Shown here: one piece after another, positions 14,306 to 25,922 of the stretch
How positions within the stretch are numbered: the first letter of the stretch is position 1
Layout of the letters: each line of letters starts with the position of its first letter
Source of the DNA: a virus
Reading direction: 5' to 3' (one strand)
DNA length: 32,943 nt
Virus record (IMG/VR): IMGVR_UViG_3300043436_000876
Coordinates: 1 to 32,943 of that record
The notes under the pieces: generated by a model
The model's input: the letters and a program-made list of their open reading frames with translations, nothing else
Told to the model about the DNA's origin: nothing
The model's database searches: none
Made by a program: the position numbers and the translations under genes

Positions 14306-14562
14306 GAGTTTAATAATTTATAAATGAACAAACATAAAACGCTGCTTAGGCATCCAATAAATAATGAATCTATAAATCCATTGCCTAAGTATAAAGAGTA
14401 GCTTAAACCGCCCCAAAATGCCATACAGAAAGAACATCCGAATGGTTTAGGTAGTTGCTTTGCGTAAAGTTTGCCGTAAATGTCAGTTGAGAAGTCACTA
14501 ATAGCAATCCCAAAGGATGCGCTAAGAGTTGTAATAATCGCTAAATTTTTTAAATCTATCAT
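14302..14562 (-). CDS. Small membrane protein with CSFC motif
   Basis: An 86-residue protein with about three hydrophobic helices (LAIITTLSASFGIAISDF; FCMAFWGGLSYSLYL; FIGCLSSVLCLFIYKLL). A KPFGCSFCMAFW turn sits between the first two. The Cys-x-x-Cys next to aromatic residues resembles DUF1360-like small membrane proteins. It overlaps the sigma factor gene by 41 bases, so a slightly later start is possible, but no better ATG is visible. Its role is unknown; inner-membrane location is inferred. Confidence 0.6.
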   Translation of the reverse strand: MIDLKNLAIITTLSASFGIAISDFSTDIYGKLYAKQLPKPFGCSFCMAFWGGLSYSLYLGNGFIDSLFIGCLSSVLCLFIYKLLNS

Positions 14563-15073
14563 GGTTTTCTAATTTTAGTTTTTTAATTGTTTTTTGTATC
14601 GTGTATTGAACCGCACCATATTTTATGCCAGTCATAACGGAAATCTTCCTAAACTCGCCTATATCAATGTATAACTTTAATAGTGTTTGGTCATACCAAT
14701 CTAACTTATCTATCTTATCCTTAATGTTTTGTGTGAAGTTTTGATAAACATCCTCTTTGTTTTCGAGTTCACTATCCAAGTCACTTTCTAATCCTATGAG
14801 TAGTTCAATGCTTTCGGTAGAGTCGTTGTGTCTGTATTTCTTGTAAAATGGTGAATGCTTTGAGTTCCAACTATTATGTGCAATCTTTACGAATAGGAAC
14901 TTCAAATACTTTTTGTCACTTGCATCTTGTATCTTCTCATCGGGTAGGTCTAATAGGTTAATGATAACCTCGTGAAACAAGTCCTCAAATAAAGTAGGTG
15001 AGGCTATGTTTCTGCATACATTTCTATACGCAGGGTCTTTATAAATAGCCTCTATTATTTGTGCTTTGTTCAT
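14522..15073 (-). CDS. Phage sigma-70 family (ECF-like) sigma factor
   Basis: A 183-residue protein with the two-domain plan of small sigma factors. Region 2 is at about residues 5-85 (ASPTLFEDLFHEVIINLLDL, then KKYLKFLFVKIAHNSWNS), fitting core-binding helix 2.1/2.2 and the start of DNA-melting 2.3/2.4. Region 4 is at about residues 120-172 (WYDQTLLKLYIDIGEFRKIS, then GIKYGAVQYTIQKTIKKLK), a helix-turn-helix that would read the -35 element. It probably redirects host RNA polymerase to other phage promoters. It is encoded after a Bacteroidetes-type promoter and before the late block, as expected of a middle/late switch. Its gene overlaps its neighbours on both sides. Confidence 0.75.
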   Translation of the reverse strand: MNKAQIIEAIYKDPAYRNVCRNIASPTLFEDLFHEVIINLLDLPDEKIQDASDKKYLKFLFVKIAHNSWNSKHSPFYKKYRHNDSTESIELLIGLESDLDSELENKEDVYQNFTQNIKDKIDKLDWYDQTLLKLYIDIGEFRKISVMTGIKYGAVQYTIQKTIKKLKLENHDRFKKFSDYYNS

Positions 15074-15778: not shown

Positions 15779-16462
15779 TTAAAATAAACTTATTTGAACT
15801 GAAGGGTTATAACTTGCATCATATCTAATATTTTCTCCTTTTGGATATGGCTCAATTTTATATGGTAGCATTTTTAACATTTTTGATTTATCTTTTTTAT
15901 TTCCTAAAAAAATAAAATATCTATGTTTACGTGGTCTTTCAATAGTTATTAAATCTTCTCCAAATTTATCTCTTAACCATTGAACCCTATTTTCTTGACC
16001 TCTGCTCATATCCATAATTGTTCCATTATGCAGGTGTTCTTTACCTTTAATATAGTAATCATTAAATTTAGCTGATAAACCCGTATATATAAAGTTTGTA
16101 GCCTGATAAATATACCCATGATGGTTATGCGATGTATCAGCATAGCTTACTATTACTAAAGGTTTAGGAATCAATTTTAAACTACTACTAACAAAATATG
16201 ATAATATATTTTTTTCTAATCCTTCGTTAATAATTAATCTATTTAATTCCATTAACTTATATTCATTATTCCATAAATTTCTTAATGGATTTGATACAGG
16301 AGTGCCATAAGTAATTACACCTTGTAAAATATTTTCAATATTAAATAATCCAAATGAATATTCTATTGGTGGAATTCTGTGAGCATAATGTTTTTTTAAT
16401 AACCATTCCTTGCAGTCACAAGTATCTATTGATTTTACTTTATATTTTTCTTTTATTGACAT
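15779..16462 (-). CDS. Mom-like DNA modification protein (GNAT fold)
   Basis: A 227-residue protein resembling phage Mu Mom and related adenine-modifying proteins. It starts with CKEWLLKKHYAHRIPPIEYS, the 'xxHYxxxxP' opening. It continues with FGLFNIENILQGVITYGTP, LMELNRLIINEGLEKNILS and SLKLIPKPLVIVSYADTSHN. It then has HHGYIYQATNFIYTGLS, a signature of the GNAT-like acyltransferase fold in these proteins. Mu Mom converts adenine to a methylcarbamoyl form that resists restriction enzymes. A similar anti-restriction role is likely, though the exact modification cannot be read. No small Com-like zinc translational activator is seen nearby. Its codons are much AT-richer than those of neighbours (9 G+C in the 60 bases at 16201), suggesting separate acquisition. 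Confidence 0.65.
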   Translation of the reverse strand: MSIKEKYKVKSIDTCDCKEWLLKKHYAHRIPPIEYSFGLFNIENILQGVITYGTPVSNPLRNLWNNEYKLMELNRLIINEGLEKNILSYFVSSSLKLIPKPLVIVSYADTSHNHHGYIYQATNFIYTGLSAKFNDYYIKGKEHLHNGTIMDMSRGQENRVQWLRDKFGEDLITIERPRKHRYFIFLGNKKDKSKMLKMLPYKIEPYPKGENIRYDASYNPSVQISLF

Positions 16463-16463
16463 T

Positions 16464-17432
16464 TTAAAAAGGTATTATATCGTTATTCATTCCTGCTATT
16501 CCTATAAACTCGCCTTGTTGTTTTGCTTTTTGACCTTCGCCAGCATAGTACATTTTGCTTTCAATGGTTTCTCTGTATCTTGACTTTCGATAATCAAATT
16601 CAAGTTCTTCCATTAGTACCTTTACTTTTCCAATTGTATCGGGCTTAACCTTACAAAAGTAAATATCAACTGTCTGTTTTGTTCTATCCGGATAGTCAAC
16701 TGAAATAATTACTTTGCCATTTGAGTTCCACGCTGAACCGCCTTTAATATCATCCGCATCAGGAACTCGCCTTTTTGGTTTGCTTCCGTTTTGGCTTTGC
16801 ATGAACTCCATTTTCTTAGGGTGAGCAATAGTCATAAAGTGTCTATTTTTTAGTTCAGCCAACTCATTACGATAGCTAAGTATGTAATCTAAGTACAAAT
16901 CTTCACGCCCTCCATATGGCGACATATCGTGGAATAAATTTTTCCAACTATCAATAAAACAAGTGTGAACAATTCCGTTAACATCTTCGTAATCGGTTGT
17001 AAATTGCCATAGTTCCTCAGGCATTATAGGCTTCTTTGCATCTTCTTTAGTAGCTATTAGGAAGTGCGTGTCAATCCATGCGCTTGCGTGTATAACCTCC
17101 GCATTGGTTATTGAATTGTCATAACCTCTAAATGAGCGTTTATAATACTTTACAAATAGCTTTCTCCTTATTTCGTTGTAGCTTCCTATGTCGGGAGCAT
17201 AAAGTAAATGTCTTATTCCAAAAGTTTCTGATTGATAAAACAATAACTCTAAAGCAAACTCAGTCTTTCCGCTATGTGGTAGCCCTGTTATATCCGTTAC
17301 GCCATCCATTGCGAATCTAAACACGCCATTTAAACATTCAAAACCTGCATAGTTAGTTCTTGCACCTCCTGTCTTATGGTATAGTTCAAAGTCTGAACGC
17401 TTCTTGTTTGGGTCGATTATCTTTACATTCAT
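16464..17432 (-). CDS. RecA/DnaB-like replicative ATPase (helicase-like)
   Basis: A 322-residue protein with a RecA-type ATPase core. Walker A GLPHSGKT is at residues 50-57 and a Walker B-like HTCFIDSW near residue 160. A later TIAHPKK fits the sensor/H motif of DnaB- or RepA-like enzymes, and DDIKGGSAWNSNGKVIISV follows. The N-terminal 45 residues are too short for a DnaB primase-binding domain. It probably unwinds the fork as a hexamer, or is a RepA/RadA-like recombination ATPase. It overlaps the preceding initiator/loader-like gene by four bases, an arrangement typical of loader-helicase pairs. AAAGGAACGG before the ATG is a weak Shine-Dalgarno match. Confidence 0.7.
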   Translation of the reverse strand: MNVKIIDPNKKRSDFELYHKTGGARTNYAGFECLNGVFRFAMDGVTDITGLPHSGKTEFALELLFYQSETFGIRHLLYAPDIGSYNEIRRKLFVKYYKRSFRGYDNSITNAEVIHASAWIDTHFLIATKEDAKKPIMPEELWQFTTDYEDVNGIVHTCFIDSWKNLFHDMSPYGGREDLYLDYILSYRNELAELKNRHFMTIAHPKKMEFMQSQNGSKPKRRVPDADDIKGGSAWNSNGKVIISVDYPDRTKQTVDIYFCKVKPDTIGKVKVLMEELEFDYRKSRYRETIESKMYYAGEGQKAKQQGEFIGIAGMNNDIIPF

Positions 17433-18037
17433 AATCCGTTCCTTTCATTAAACATTCTTAGTCTGAACTCCCTTTCCGTTTCTTCTTTGGGTAATTGTAA
17501 TGCCTCAGGAATTACATCGTTCCACCTTTTTTGATTTAAGTAGGTCATTGGGTTCGGATGGTTATATTCTGGGAATGGTTTATAAGAAATAAATTTATCT
17601 AATGTAGCTTTTATAGATTCTTTTTCTTTATTAGTTAATGAATCAAATTTATTTTCGCATTTGTCTTTAGCAATCTTATTTGGATACATCTTCCAAAAGT
17701 CATTAAAGGTAAATGTATTAATATCTTTCTCTTTCCCTTCCTCTTTCTCTTGTGCCTTAGGGGGTGGCGTAACCCCTGCCGTAGGGGGTAAGCTACTTAG
17801 AGGCTCTAAGGATATATCGCCCCTCTTTAATCTTTGGTTAAATCCGTTTATTTGTGAATCAATAGAATGTTGTTGGGATATGTAGGCAAATTTAGCCATC
17901 CCTTTAAGTTCAGTTTTTTGTCCAGTAAATTGTTCTAACATTAAAGCATCGTAAAATGCTAATCTGTCTTTGTCGGTTAATTCGTTGGCTACTTCATAAT
18001 AGCTACGAAAAAAATTAAATGCTTTTCTATTGCTCAT
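17429..18037 (-). CDS. DUF6291 replication initiator/helicase loader-like protein
   Basis: A 202-residue protein with two parts. The N-terminal domain (about residues 1-75: AFNFFRSYYEVANELTDKDR, DALMLEQFTGQKTELKG) fits DUF6291. A Pro-rich linker follows (residues near 95, PPTAGVTPPPK). The C-terminal domain (TFNDFWKMYPNKIAKDKC and PNPMTYLNQKRWNDVIPE) is the 'FWxxYPxKxxK ... TYLNxxRW' module of DnaD- and loader-type phage replication proteins. The ATG at 18037 is chosen because it begins the DUF6291 homology; the frame is open further upstream but has no ATG and runs through a structured leader. It probably brings the following ATPase to the origin. The linker-coding DNA carries G-rich inverted repeats, which recalls the lambda O gene. 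Confidence 0.7.
   Translation of the reverse strand: MSNRKAFNFFRSYYEVANELTDKDRLAFYDALMLEQFTGQKTELKGMAKFAYISQQHSIDSQINGFNQRLKRGDISLEPLSSLPPTAGVTPPPKAQEKEEGKEKDINTFTFNDFWKMYPNKIAKDKCENKFDSLTNKEKESIKATLDKFISYKPFPEYNHPNPMTYLNQKRWNDVIPEALQLPKEETEREFRLRMFNERNGL
17757..17810. repeat. G-rich overlapping inverted repeats inside the initiator gene
   Basis: TTAGGGGGT (17757-17765), ACCCC (about 17771-17775) and TAGGGGGT (17782-17789) allow two mutually exclusive hairpins, since the central ACCCC can pair with either flank. A perfect palindrome, CTTAGAG-G-CTCTAAG, follows at 17796-17810. The cluster codes for the Pro-rich linker of the protein. Candidate initiator-binding region. Confidence 0.5.
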
Positions 18038-18044
18038 AAATAAA

Positions 18045-18114
18045 AATTGCCCTCGGCGTGGTGGTGCTTCGGGCAATTCTTTTAATTCCTTAATAAAATG
18101 ATACTCACCACCAC
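18045..18114 (-). promoter_or_regulatory. Structured leader with competing pairings before the initiator gene
   Basis: On the minus strand GTGGTGGTG (18114-18106) is exactly complementary to CACCACCAC (18066-18058). The latter lies in the loop of a perfect 8-bp hairpin, AATTGCCC/GGGCAATT (18078-18071 with 18052-18045). That hairpin is followed by TTTATTT and the ATG at 18037, so it looks like an intrinsic terminator. Pairing of the upstream GTG repeat with the loop would make a pseudoknot or oppose the hairpin. The leader also holds a three-codon frame (Met-Trp-Trp-stop, 18116-18105). Confidence 0.55.
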
Positions 18115-18128
18115 ATGGGTATCAAGTG

Positions 18129-18158
18129 CAAATATAAACCTTTATAAATAAATGTCAA
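18129..18158 (-). promoter_or_regulatory. Bacteroidetes-type promoter P18
   Basis: Minus-strand TTG (18158-18156), 19 bases, TATATTTG (18136-18129). The upstream box is in the last codons of the NinG gene. It should drive the initiator, ATPase and Mom-like genes with a leader of about 85 bases. Confidence 0.75.
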
Positions 18159-18762
18159 GCATTTTATTATACTTAGTCCTTAAAGCTATTCTTTCCTCTG
18201 CGTTTCTTGGCAACTTAGCAGACTTGTTTAATTCAATTAACTCCTTTACTATCTTTTTAGCCGTTTTCGTGCGTTCTGCGAGTTCATCTTTATTTAGCTT
18301 AACAATCGGATAGATTACGTTTAAATCGTCAATATAAGCCATCTGAGAATCGCCAAAGGTTTGTATTATACCCTCTCTAAATTTAATTAGATTGCCATTT
18401 TGATAAGTATTGCACCTTGCACAACCAGAGTAAATGTTGTGTAGATTAAACCTTAAATTATCCCATGCACCTACTCCTCTAAAATGTGAGGCATCAAATT
18501 TAGCATTTGTAACTCCACAAGCTAAACATTTGCAACCTTCATCAATTAGCCTAACTATTTTGTTAACCTCAATTTGAAGTTCTTTCTTGTAGTCGCCTAA
18601 AGTTTTTAAGGATTCCTTTAATTTTAGGTTAAGTTTCTTTTTTTCGACCTCCTTCTGTTTTGTTTTTGCTGCACTTACTTTCAATGCACACTTTAATCCG
18701 CAAACCGATTGAATGGTATTGCTTGGCTCAAAGTTTTTACCGCAGGATTTACATTTTTTCAT
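18142..18762 (-). CDS. ninG: NinG/Rap-like recombination protein
   Basis: A 206-residue basic protein starting MKKCKSCGKNFEPSN. The ATG at 18762 is chosen over an upstream extension that would overlap the previous gene. A zinc-binding Cys set sits at the N-terminus (CKSCG and CGLKCA). A Lys-rich coiled coil follows, then the HNH-like core: CLACG, FDASHFRGVGAWDNLRFN, HNIYSGCARCN. This is the layout of lambda NinG (Rap), a Holliday-junction-directed recombination endonuclease acting with Red-type systems. It lies downstream of an annealing protein and exonuclease of that type. Eleven bases separate it from the PAPS-reductase-like gene. Confidence 0.85.
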   Translation of the reverse strand: MKKCKSCGKNFEPSNTIQSVCGLKCALKVSAAKTKQKEVEKKKLNLKLKESLKTLGDYKKELQIEVNKIVRLIDEGCKCLACGVTNAKFDASHFRGVGAWDNLRFNLHNIYSGCARCNTYQNGNLIKFREGIIQTFGDSQMAYIDDLNVIYPIVKLNKDELAERTKTAKKIVKELIELNKSAKLPRNAEERIALRTKYNKMLDIYL

Positions 18763-18773
18763 AGTTTTTTTAA

Positions 18774-19607
18774 TTAATCTGTACAAAATCCCGCTTGACA
18801 ACCACTACCAGTTCCAAAATAAAATTCTTGTTGTAATCCTATTTTTTTTATTTGTTCATAGGTTATATTTGATTTATAATTGTATTTTGAGTTAATTTCC
18901 ATATTATTAAACCATTCCATTTTACTATAATTGTCATCATAGTTTTTTCTCAATTGTTGTATATCTTTCCAAAAACAACCAACACAATTTGAATCATCAG
19001 GAAATTTAATATTTTTACTTTCCCAAAATTTATGCACTGGAATATGAGTTACTTTATCATAAACTAAAGGATAATTTGCTATACCCCAATTTAGGTCTTT
19101 CCATTTATTTCTTGTTCCGTTTTTGCCAATTATAATTTTTGTTTTTAATTCTCTTTCTTTTTTTCCATATTTTGCTCTCTCTTTTTCGTCATATCTAATT
19201 CCAATATTTGAAAACACTTTTTCATTATCTGATATAATATTTTTATAAATATATTCTGCAATAGGTCTAATTTTCATATCTGTTGTGCAAAATCTTCTTG
19301 CCATATTTGGAACTGCATTTCCGTGTTTTTTAATTACAGATTCAAAAGTATCTCCACTAACCCAAATTATTTCTTTTCCAATAAATTGTTCAAGGTCTCG
19401 CATTGCGTACAAGGTTAAATCGCTTTCAGCAGTTGCAATAAAATCTTTACCCAATTTTTCAGAAATATATTTTACAATACCTAAATCTTTTGGTTTGCAA
19501 TTAATATCTTCTATTTGAACTAATGCAAATATTTCATAATCAGCAGGATAATGGACTGCCATATAACTTGAAGTTTTACCTCCGCTTAAACTATTTATTG
19601 TTTTCAT
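18774..19607 (-). CDS. PAPS reductase-like PP-loop protein
   Basis: A 277-residue adenine-nucleotide alpha-hydrolase. The PP-loop SGGKTSS is at residues 8-14. ARRFCTTDMKIRPI, NIGIRYDEKERAKYG, a CVGCFWK motif and a C-terminal GCQAGFCTD give at least five Cys, as in Fe-S-carrying members. It activates a substrate by adenylation, but the substrate is unknown. Family members act in sulfate reduction, DNA phosphorothioation (DndC) and tRNA thiolation. No other Dnd or sulfate genes are present, so a nucleic acid modification or sulfur-linked anti-defence role is only a guess. The gene is much AT-richer than its neighbours (11 G+C in the 60 bases at 19201). Confidence 0.75.
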   Translation of the reverse strand: MKTINSLSGGKTSSYMAVHYPADYEIFALVQIEDINCKPKDLGIVKYISEKLGKDFIATAESDLTLYAMRDLEQFIGKEIIWVSGDTFESVIKKHGNAVPNMARRFCTTDMKIRPIAEYIYKNIISDNEKVFSNIGIRYDEKERAKYGKKERELKTKIIIGKNGTRNKWKDLNWGIANYPLVYDKVTHIPVHKFWESKNIKFPDDSNCVGCFWKDIQQLRKNYDDNYSKMEWFNNMEINSKYNYKSNITYEQIKKIGLQQEFYFGTGSGCQAGFCTD

Positions 19608-24647: not shown

Positions 24648-24738
24648 TAGTCAGGACAGGATTCGAACCTGTAAGTTTCCAATCGCAACGATACCATATC
24701 CTATCTTGGAGTCGAACCAACTTTAAGCCACCTGACTA
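24648..24738 (-). tRNA. tRNA-like element, isotype not assigned
   Basis: TAGTCAGG at the 5' end pairs perfectly with CCTGACTA at the 3' end (8 bp; 7 bp plus discriminator is also possible). A canonical T-arm follows from the other side, ACAGG-TTCGAAT-CCTGT, adjoining the acceptor stem. The central part is odd. A second T-arm-like hairpin (TTGG-TTCGACT-CCAA) sits where the D or anticodon arm should be. A TCCAA/TTGGA stem encloses 23 bases instead of 7, and no normal D-arm fits. No CCA is encoded. It could be a divergent type II tRNA, one with an insertion, or a degenerate tRNA. Confidence 0.5.
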
Positions 24739-25644: not shown

Positions 25645-25672
25645 TTAATATTTTATATTTGTTGTGTTGTTT

Positions 25673-25754
25673 AACGGGCAGGTTAAAACAAAAGATATTG
25701 ATTAAGGGCGACTTAATCCAAACTTAATCTTTAAAACCTAATGACCTGCCCGTT
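25673..25754. other. Large inverted repeat with internal alternative hairpins
   Basis: AACGGGCAGGT (25673-25683) and ACCTGCCCGTT (25744-25754) form a perfect 11-bp stem, extendable by a wobble and one pair. Inside, GATTAAG (25700-25706) can pair with either of two CTTAATC copies (25712-25718 and 25723-25729). On the plus strand the stem is followed by GTTGGGTTTTTTT; on the minus strand it is preceded by AAAAAAAC. It lies in a 385-bp gap with no gene. It could be a structured RNA, a terminator for plus-strand transcripts, or a DNA site such as an origin. Confidence 0.6.
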
Positions 25755-25922
25755 GTTGGGTTTTTTTATACCCACTTCAAAAAATGTTCCATTAGTCTGT
25801 GCATAGGTTTTAGACCATTCCACGAAAACGGATTATAATTTCACAAATACTTTTAAATCGAATTGATGACGCAACACTTTCTCTTTTCGAGCCTCACTTA
25901 ACTTTACGACTCATTTATACGC

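Follow-up and report, generated by a model that had tools for sequence, protein, structure and literature searches.

In phage P4, immunity is encoded in a leader: the processed CI RNA pairs with two targets and serves lysogeny. The attenuators of plasmids pT181 and pIP501 respond to an antisense partner, the attenuator target having mutually exclusive folds, and in ColE1-type plasmids kissing antisense RNAs are found. The put element of phage HK022 is a two-hairpin RNA with neither a U-run terminator nor a kissing loop; the purine and lysine riboswitches contain kissing loops, the lysine aptamer also carrying a loop-E motif; and the pRNA of phi29, an RNA of the packaging motor, pairs from one molecule to another.

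Like the P4 leader, the flavophage element described here heads a replication operon, holds complementary segments within the leader and would have premature termination as its output; unlike it, the element consists of two hairpin loops in one short leader, and no relative of its initiator family turned up in 84,980 bacterial and archaeal genomes. It shares with the plasmid systems loop-loop RNA contacts bearing on replication and, as far as the attenuators go, a terminator ahead of the initiator gene, but a single sense RNA carries both of its loops, and mutually exclusive folds are not conserved. Like put, it is a short two-hairpin RNA immediately after early phage promoters, although it has both a U-run and a kissing loop. 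The riboswitches resemble it in being cis leaders with a loop-loop contact and a gene downstream, whereas the flavophage element has no conserved ligand-binding core, shows 51 kissing words in 87 elements, and carries its kissing loop on the terminator hairpin itself. With phi29 pRNA it has in common one RNA with two complementary loops that covary between phages; it differs in being a terminator-bearing leader ahead of replication genes. The likenesses to P4 CI RNA, the plasmid attenuators, put and pRNA are probably functional analogies rather than signs of membership. Rfam 15 gave no match over the leader studied here and, in 11 relatives at E ≤ 5, chance matches only, below threshold; no description of the element was found in the literature searched, which covered few subscription papers. 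The kissing-loop leader is apparently undescribed so far.

Anatomy of the leader

The window, that is, the whole stretch of DNA analysed, is a virus record of 32,943 bases whose minus strand carries nearly all of the gene-like long ORFs, and the site was read straight from that strand. The leader is about 90 nt long and lies between a NinG-like gene and the replication initiator gene (Table 1). It is headed by the promoter TTGACA-16-TATATTTG, which reads as a Bacteroidota sigma-A type. The sigma-A -7 consensus of Flavobacterium psychrophilum, TAnnTTTG, occupies positions -12 to -5 (PMC9723704), so that +1 is expected at about 18124.

Table 1. Features of the leader, its neighbouring genes and the second element in the window
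Feature	Position	Strand	Basis or remark
TTGACA box	18158-18153	-	sequence
-7 box TATATTTG of sigma-A promoter	18129..18136	-	sequence; TAnnTTTG consensus
5' hairpin P1, stem TGATAC/GTATCA (6 bp), loop CCATGTGGTGGTGA	18099..18124	-	sequence, MFE fold, covariation in relatives
Kissing sequence A GTGGTGGTG, P1 loop	18106..18114	-	exact complement of B; A:B helix covaries across relatives
Hairpin P2, terminator stem AATTGCCC/GGGCAATT, 8 bp perfect	18045..18078 (18078-18071 with 18052-18045)	-	sequence
Kissing sequence B CACCACCAC, inside 18-nt P2 loop	18058..18066	-	exact complement of A; covariation across relatives
U-run ending P2: TTTTT, then ATTT	18042..18046	-	sequence
ATG-TGG-TGG-TGA mini-frame (incidental)	18105..18116	-	not conserved in relatives
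Replication initiator gene	17429..18037	-	PHROG 270 replication initiation protein, 1.3e-10
NinG-like gene	18142-18801		adjoins leader
Second element, same anatomy: TATATTTG, two complementary loops, T7	25654..25767	+	descriptor match score 35, 11-nt kiss
Second element, P1 loop AACGGGCAGGT	25673-25683	+	descriptor match
Second element, P2 loop ACCTGCCCGTT	25744-25754	+	descriptor match

The 5' hairpin P1 has the layout TGATAC-CCAT-GTGGTGGTG-A-GTATCA and is followed by an AT-rich linker; P2 has the layout AATTGCCC-GAAG-CACCACCAC-GCCGA-GGGCAATT, then TTTTTATTT and the ATG. P2 (-14.9 kcal/mol) and its U-run span 18078-18042 and are separated by 4 nt from the ATG at 18037-18035. By sequence, a putative intrinsic terminator with a GC-containing stem and a U-run stands between the promoter and the first gene; a stock terminator scan missed it because the P2 loop is 18 nt long and the scan allows 3-8 nt. 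A sequence-only reading of this DNA had described a perfect, terminator-like 8-bp hairpin with a T-run before the ATG and a loop segment exactly complementary to an upstream repeat, and both are there. It was right that this repeat is complementary to the P2 loop and overlooked that a 6-bp hairpin of its own presents GTGGTGGTG in its loop. Because the two 9-mers both lie in hairpin loops, their contact is a loop-loop kiss. P1 and P2 are both part of the leader's MFE fold (-26.8 kcal/mol, z = -2.1), and the 9-nt A:B duplex has an energy of -15.4 kcal/mol. Class I elements have a clear apical sub-stem that the window variant lacks, and the only other carriers of the window's kissing pair are near-identical relatives (L002-L004).

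The N-terminus of the initiator is DUF6291-like, below the cut-off, and its ATG start is backed by alignment A1; an N-terminus extended through the leader from a TTG at 18076 was rejected, relatives starting at MSNRK/LTKRK. Downstream of the initiator, a sigma-factor-like protein (PHROG 1740) and a Mom-like DNA modification protein are encoded (14522-15073 and 15779-16462, minus strand). Elsewhere on the minus strand, 24648-24737 gave a tRNA-like Rfam match of 29.8 bits (gathering 29) that overlaps a predicted ORF start.

Conservation of the fold in relatives

Eighty viral loci were fetched by the initiator protein alone and analysed together with the window. In the 165 nt upstream of the initiator starts, unrelated sequences follow one plan: TAnnTTTG comes first, then a short hairpin, next a terminator hairpin with a loop that complements the first one, and finally a U-run and the ATG. 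The tie to the replication operon proposed in the sequence-only reading is supported. A descriptor comprising TAnnTTTG, P1, a terminator P2 and a loop-loop complement of at least 6 nt gave 37 matches (28 distinct) in the 80 loci and the window, against 1.4 expected from whole shuffles or 0.6 from downstream-only shuffles. Another 80 loci, which the protein alignment had brought in with longer flanks and partly from the contigs of the first set, gave 63 matches (42 distinct) against 2.3 expected. Among the matches listed for the pattern GTGGTGGTG..CACCACCAC in viral contigs, the descriptor was passed only by the lineage of the window.

Because these scans require complementarity, the test was rerun on promoter and terminator alone. 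Loop complements of at least 6, 7 and 8 nt were present in 48, 37 and 24 of the 57 non-redundant sites, against chance values of 6.3, 2.2 and 0.6 obtained by permuting P1 regions and P2 loops among sites; six of the nine sites without a complement of at least 6 nt are on the opposite strand. Covariance model R1, built from ten leaders with no kissing information, matched leaders outside its training set. At 14 such places, some with E above 0.01, the complement was at least 6 nt in 14, at least 7 nt in 12 (1.1 expected) and at least 8 nt in 10 (0.2 expected). The element sequences are related to one another, and none of these counts are independent.

Alignment A4 (10 sequences) revealed pairing in 270 of 270 cells over P1, the kiss, lower P2 and apical P2, a percentage that for the kiss is partly built in, in A4 as in A5, because members were picked by the descriptor; the unbiased tests of the kiss are the 57-site permutation test and the 14 R1 places. 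Both sides change in 21 of the 27 pairs of A4, with double changes in 5 of 8 kissing pairs and in all five pairs of the P1 stem (helix 1), and the P2 stem in relatives shows double changes in 8 of 10 pairs. The covariation score of A4 was 0.775 vs 0.224 when shuffled, and slid-partner controls gave 0.05-0.13. In alignment A5 (6 sequences), the kiss is the only helix that varies: P1, P2 and the apical stem stay constant, and 4 of the 7 kissing pairs show double changes. The kissing 7-mer occurs as GTTGCAG, GTAACGG or GTCGTGG, the other loop changing to match. General diversifying selection on the kissing words was considered and rejected: they change on average at about the same rate as stems and linkers, and lineage A5 alone shows such a pattern.

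The covariation of the two 9-mers and the stem, proposed earlier as a check, is thus very strong in relatives, and the pseudoknot-type long-range pairing that had been suggested finds support in the covarying kiss: two hairpin loops with covarying Watson-Crick complementarity, as in a kissing-loop RNA. The description of the pairings as competing did not hold, as no nucleotide is shared between P1, the kiss and P2, which are compatible and co-conserved; the four conserved helices of A4 occupy different columns and are all paired in every sequence. Judged by these comparisons, the P1-kiss-P2 leader is a genuine and widespread RNA element, present in dozens of phages that infect Flavobacterium and related bacteria, whose fold is kept while its letters are wholly different. 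Since the fold is kept and the sequence is nearly free, ordinary homology searches miss the element.

Distribution and shape of the family

Our curated collection holds 87 distinct elements, among which 51 kissing words occur. The kiss is 6-11 nt long, most commonly 8; A begins about 10-13 nt past the -7 box, B occupies the central part of the P2 loop, and the A-to-B spacing is mostly about 46-56 nt. Nearly all elements are preceded by the same -7 box, TAnnTTTG, and in nearly all the next gene starts 6-53 nt past the P2 stem. The median P2 energy is -16.5 kcal/mol. Between the lower and apical stems of P2, internal loops of the form AGTA/GAA (28/87) and TGAA/GGA (17/87) recur, for example in L015, L028, L114 and L122; by analogy with sarcin-ricin/loop-E or tandem-GA motifs, which they resemble, they could be a protein-binding or rigidifying module. 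The P1-P2 linker is similar to AAAGAAATTATTTAA in divergent classes.

A scan with the class pattern GGGCAGGT..AGTAA..CCTGCCCG, which requires neither U-run nor promoter, identified 24 viral contigs, all with a U-run (at least 5 T in the 8 nt after P2) and 22 with the promoter box. Eight matches to this pattern in bacterial genomes look like chance repeats, and the GGGCAGG pattern, considered as a sign of bacterial carriers, gave only chance repeats in other organisms. Across 345 Bacteroidota genomes the RNA model matched nothing, which counts for little because, under stricter filters, only some dozen candidates were scored in each genome; the same route does recover phage records. No prophage carriers were seen, as the searches of genomes with the initiator (zero relatives in the 84,980 mentioned above) and with the RNA model came back empty.

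Among cultured carriers, Polaribacter phage P12002L has the element directly ahead of its 'replication protein' and Cellulophaga phage phi19:3 ahead of a DUF6291 protein; Flavobacterium phage 11b carries one as well. In Flavobacterium columnare phage FCL-2, record KM873719, the leader lies at about 37475-37590 on the plus strand and precedes a replication initiator. In Tenacibaculum phage JQ, the element has a variant promoter box and lies upstream of the gene preceding the initiator homologue. Tenacibaculum phage Gundel_1 carries elements before its replication protein and before an AntA/ANT antirepressor; the latter (L428, 33891-34020, plus strand), ahead of an AntA/KilAC antirepressor gene, recalls the RNA control of antirepressors in P1 and P7 by c4 RNA. 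No descriptor match was obtained in Flavobacterium phage 6H or Nonlabens phage P12024S, and no element was present in the sequence stretch examined for the close initiators L008-L011. The absence from Rfam despite cultured carriers (11b, FCL-2, P12002L, Gundel_1, phi19:3 and JQ) may be because the fold is conserved and the sequence free.

Downstream genes and cassette exchange

The genes behind the leaders usually encode replication initiators and otherwise helicases, endonucleases or an antirepressor; small ORFs also follow some leaders, and the helicase, NUMOD4/HNH and GIY-YIG endonuclease calls rest on the opening residues of the proteins. As the proteins behind the leader fall in different PHROGs, the RNA does not depend on a particular protein family. 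In L087 (6479, plus strand), L288, L332, L420 and L423, the element lies directly ahead of GIY-YIG or NUMOD4/HNH homing-endonuclease-like genes, and mobile endonucleases may spread together with the leader.

Comparison of the sibling phage L432 with the window showed that both have the promoter, the NinG gene and an ATPase gene matching at 100%. From TATATTTG onward, L432 carries another leader built to the same layout, with the kiss TTTCGCA/TGCGAAA and a longer P2 loop, followed by an initiator that is unrelated to that of the window (weakly DUF1376-like, with a primosomal PHROG) except that its last residues match. Positions 4600-5950 of L432 thus form a non-homologous leader and initiator cassette between near-identical flanks, with an extra gene of 177 aa without a Pfam or PHROG match. 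In L003, the leader and initiator of the window stand behind other upstream sequence, the junction again being at the -7 box. Read from these junctions, leader and initiator are exchanged as one cassette that is cut at the -7 box.

A second element in the window

The plus-strand element (Table 1) has no plus-strand gene downstream, and the plus strand is otherwise gene-poor. Its linker holds an extra hairpin. Its loops have CGGGCAGGT/CCTGCCCG (9-mer CGGGCAGGT) in common with the commonest class in other phages; no relatives carrying the same 11-nt pair were found. From its sequence and position, this copy is perhaps a stand-alone small RNA.

Proposed mechanism and alternatives

The comparisons show a promoter-started composite fold of P1, linker, P2 and U-run, with the P1 loop paired to the apical loop of P2, ahead of an early operon; P1 starts at about +1 to +6, and P2 has a lower and an apical stem, in many cases separated by an internal loop. 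We infer from this architecture that P2 would be an intrinsic terminator at which some transcripts end after about 80-90 nt, and that docking of P1 would set the frequency. The model of a 'kissing-loop terminator', an attenuator in which a kissing loop would link the terminator to the 5' hairpin, has in our judgement an even chance of being correct.

In our view, docking most likely antiterminates. P1 would be complete before loop B emerges, and B would emerge before the 3' arm of P2; P1 could then seize loop B on its exit from the polymerase, and the short linker would impede closing of the last base pairs at the base of P2, giving read-through. With P1 occupied otherwise, by loop B of a terminated leader RNA or by a factor, P2 would close and transcription would stop. 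The cognate loop of another leader RNA would be an attractive occupant of P1, leading to copy-sensing or superinfection control. A cis contact during transcription would explain the constrained A-to-B spacing despite the inverse relation of linker and stem lengths (rho -0.48). The idea of a mechanical conflict arises because the linker seems too short for a fully stacked rod in about a quarter of the elements: the ratio of linker reach to the length of the stacked P1-kiss-P2 rod has a median of 1.16 and is below 0.94 in about a quarter, a crude estimate that assumes a straight rod, whereas bent kissing complexes would abolish the conflict. A linker spanning such a rod should moreover grow with the stems, but it does the opposite.

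The same anatomy could be read in other ways. Plasmid replication genes are shut off by antisense RNAs, and a sense-RNA version would be recognition in trans, in which terminated leader RNA builds up with copy number and its loops capture new transcripts, turning the operon off. Most leaders do precede replication genes, kissing words differ between elements of one contig (L309, L417, L421, L426), A5 presents three loop specificities on one invariant backbone, and the gene-less plus-strand copy shares CGGGCAGGT with the commonest class. A pure trans role, however, has no need of a constrained A-to-B spacing, intramolecular pairing should win kinetically, and the kissing positions evolve on average no faster than stems or linkers, which leaves this reading possible but doubtful. 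That the kiss strengthens or protects, sealing the 5' end on the terminator so that a stable small RNA (or mRNA 5' end) is the product, would suit four compatible, co-conserved helices forming one rigid fold, a structured body as suggested by the recurrent internal loops (AGTA/GAA, TGAA/GGA), and the stand-alone copy; we think it rather unlikely, as the elements lie nearly always just ahead of an early gene and are exchanged with it, and a free RNA needs neither.

Processive antitermination as by put, with the P1-P2 fold binding polymerase so that later terminators are ignored, would fit elements directly behind host-type promoters of early phage operons, but the conserved U-run after P2 (24/24) would be superfluous and conserved primary sequence is limited to short patterns; we consider this very improbable. 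Least credible of all, to the point of being nearly dismissible, is the attenuator controlled by a ribosome on a Trp leader peptide that had been suggested from the Met-Trp-Trp-stop frame in the upstream repeat. The frame exists in the window, yet a closed mini-ORF is present in 14 of the 87 elements and one with a Trp codon in 3, so that there is no conserved Trp-rich leader ORF, and ribosome stalling is unlikely because the mini-ORFs are not conserved. The tandem Trp codons come from the GTG repeat that is the kissing word of this lineage only, in line with the reservation, voiced with the original suggestion, that they might be incidental. No conserved alternative in the form of a mutually exclusive antiterminator helix was seen in the A4 structure; a classical competing-hairpin switch is therefore also unlikely.

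The kissing-loop terminator can be extended, tentatively and with the odds against it, to a widespread phage leader family that would govern early operons by self-recognition of a sense RNA, with operon-specific loop words in which cis pairing would let polymerase pass and trans pairing would stop it. If true, phages could control copy number or superinfection with neither a protein nor an antisense transcript. A terminator loop that kisses the 5' end of its own RNA would be a novel design of transcription regulator. The element precedes replication genes in phages of a major aquatic bacterial group, and its 51 differing loop pairs are a natural set with which RNA-based replication control in Bacteroidota phages is directly testable.
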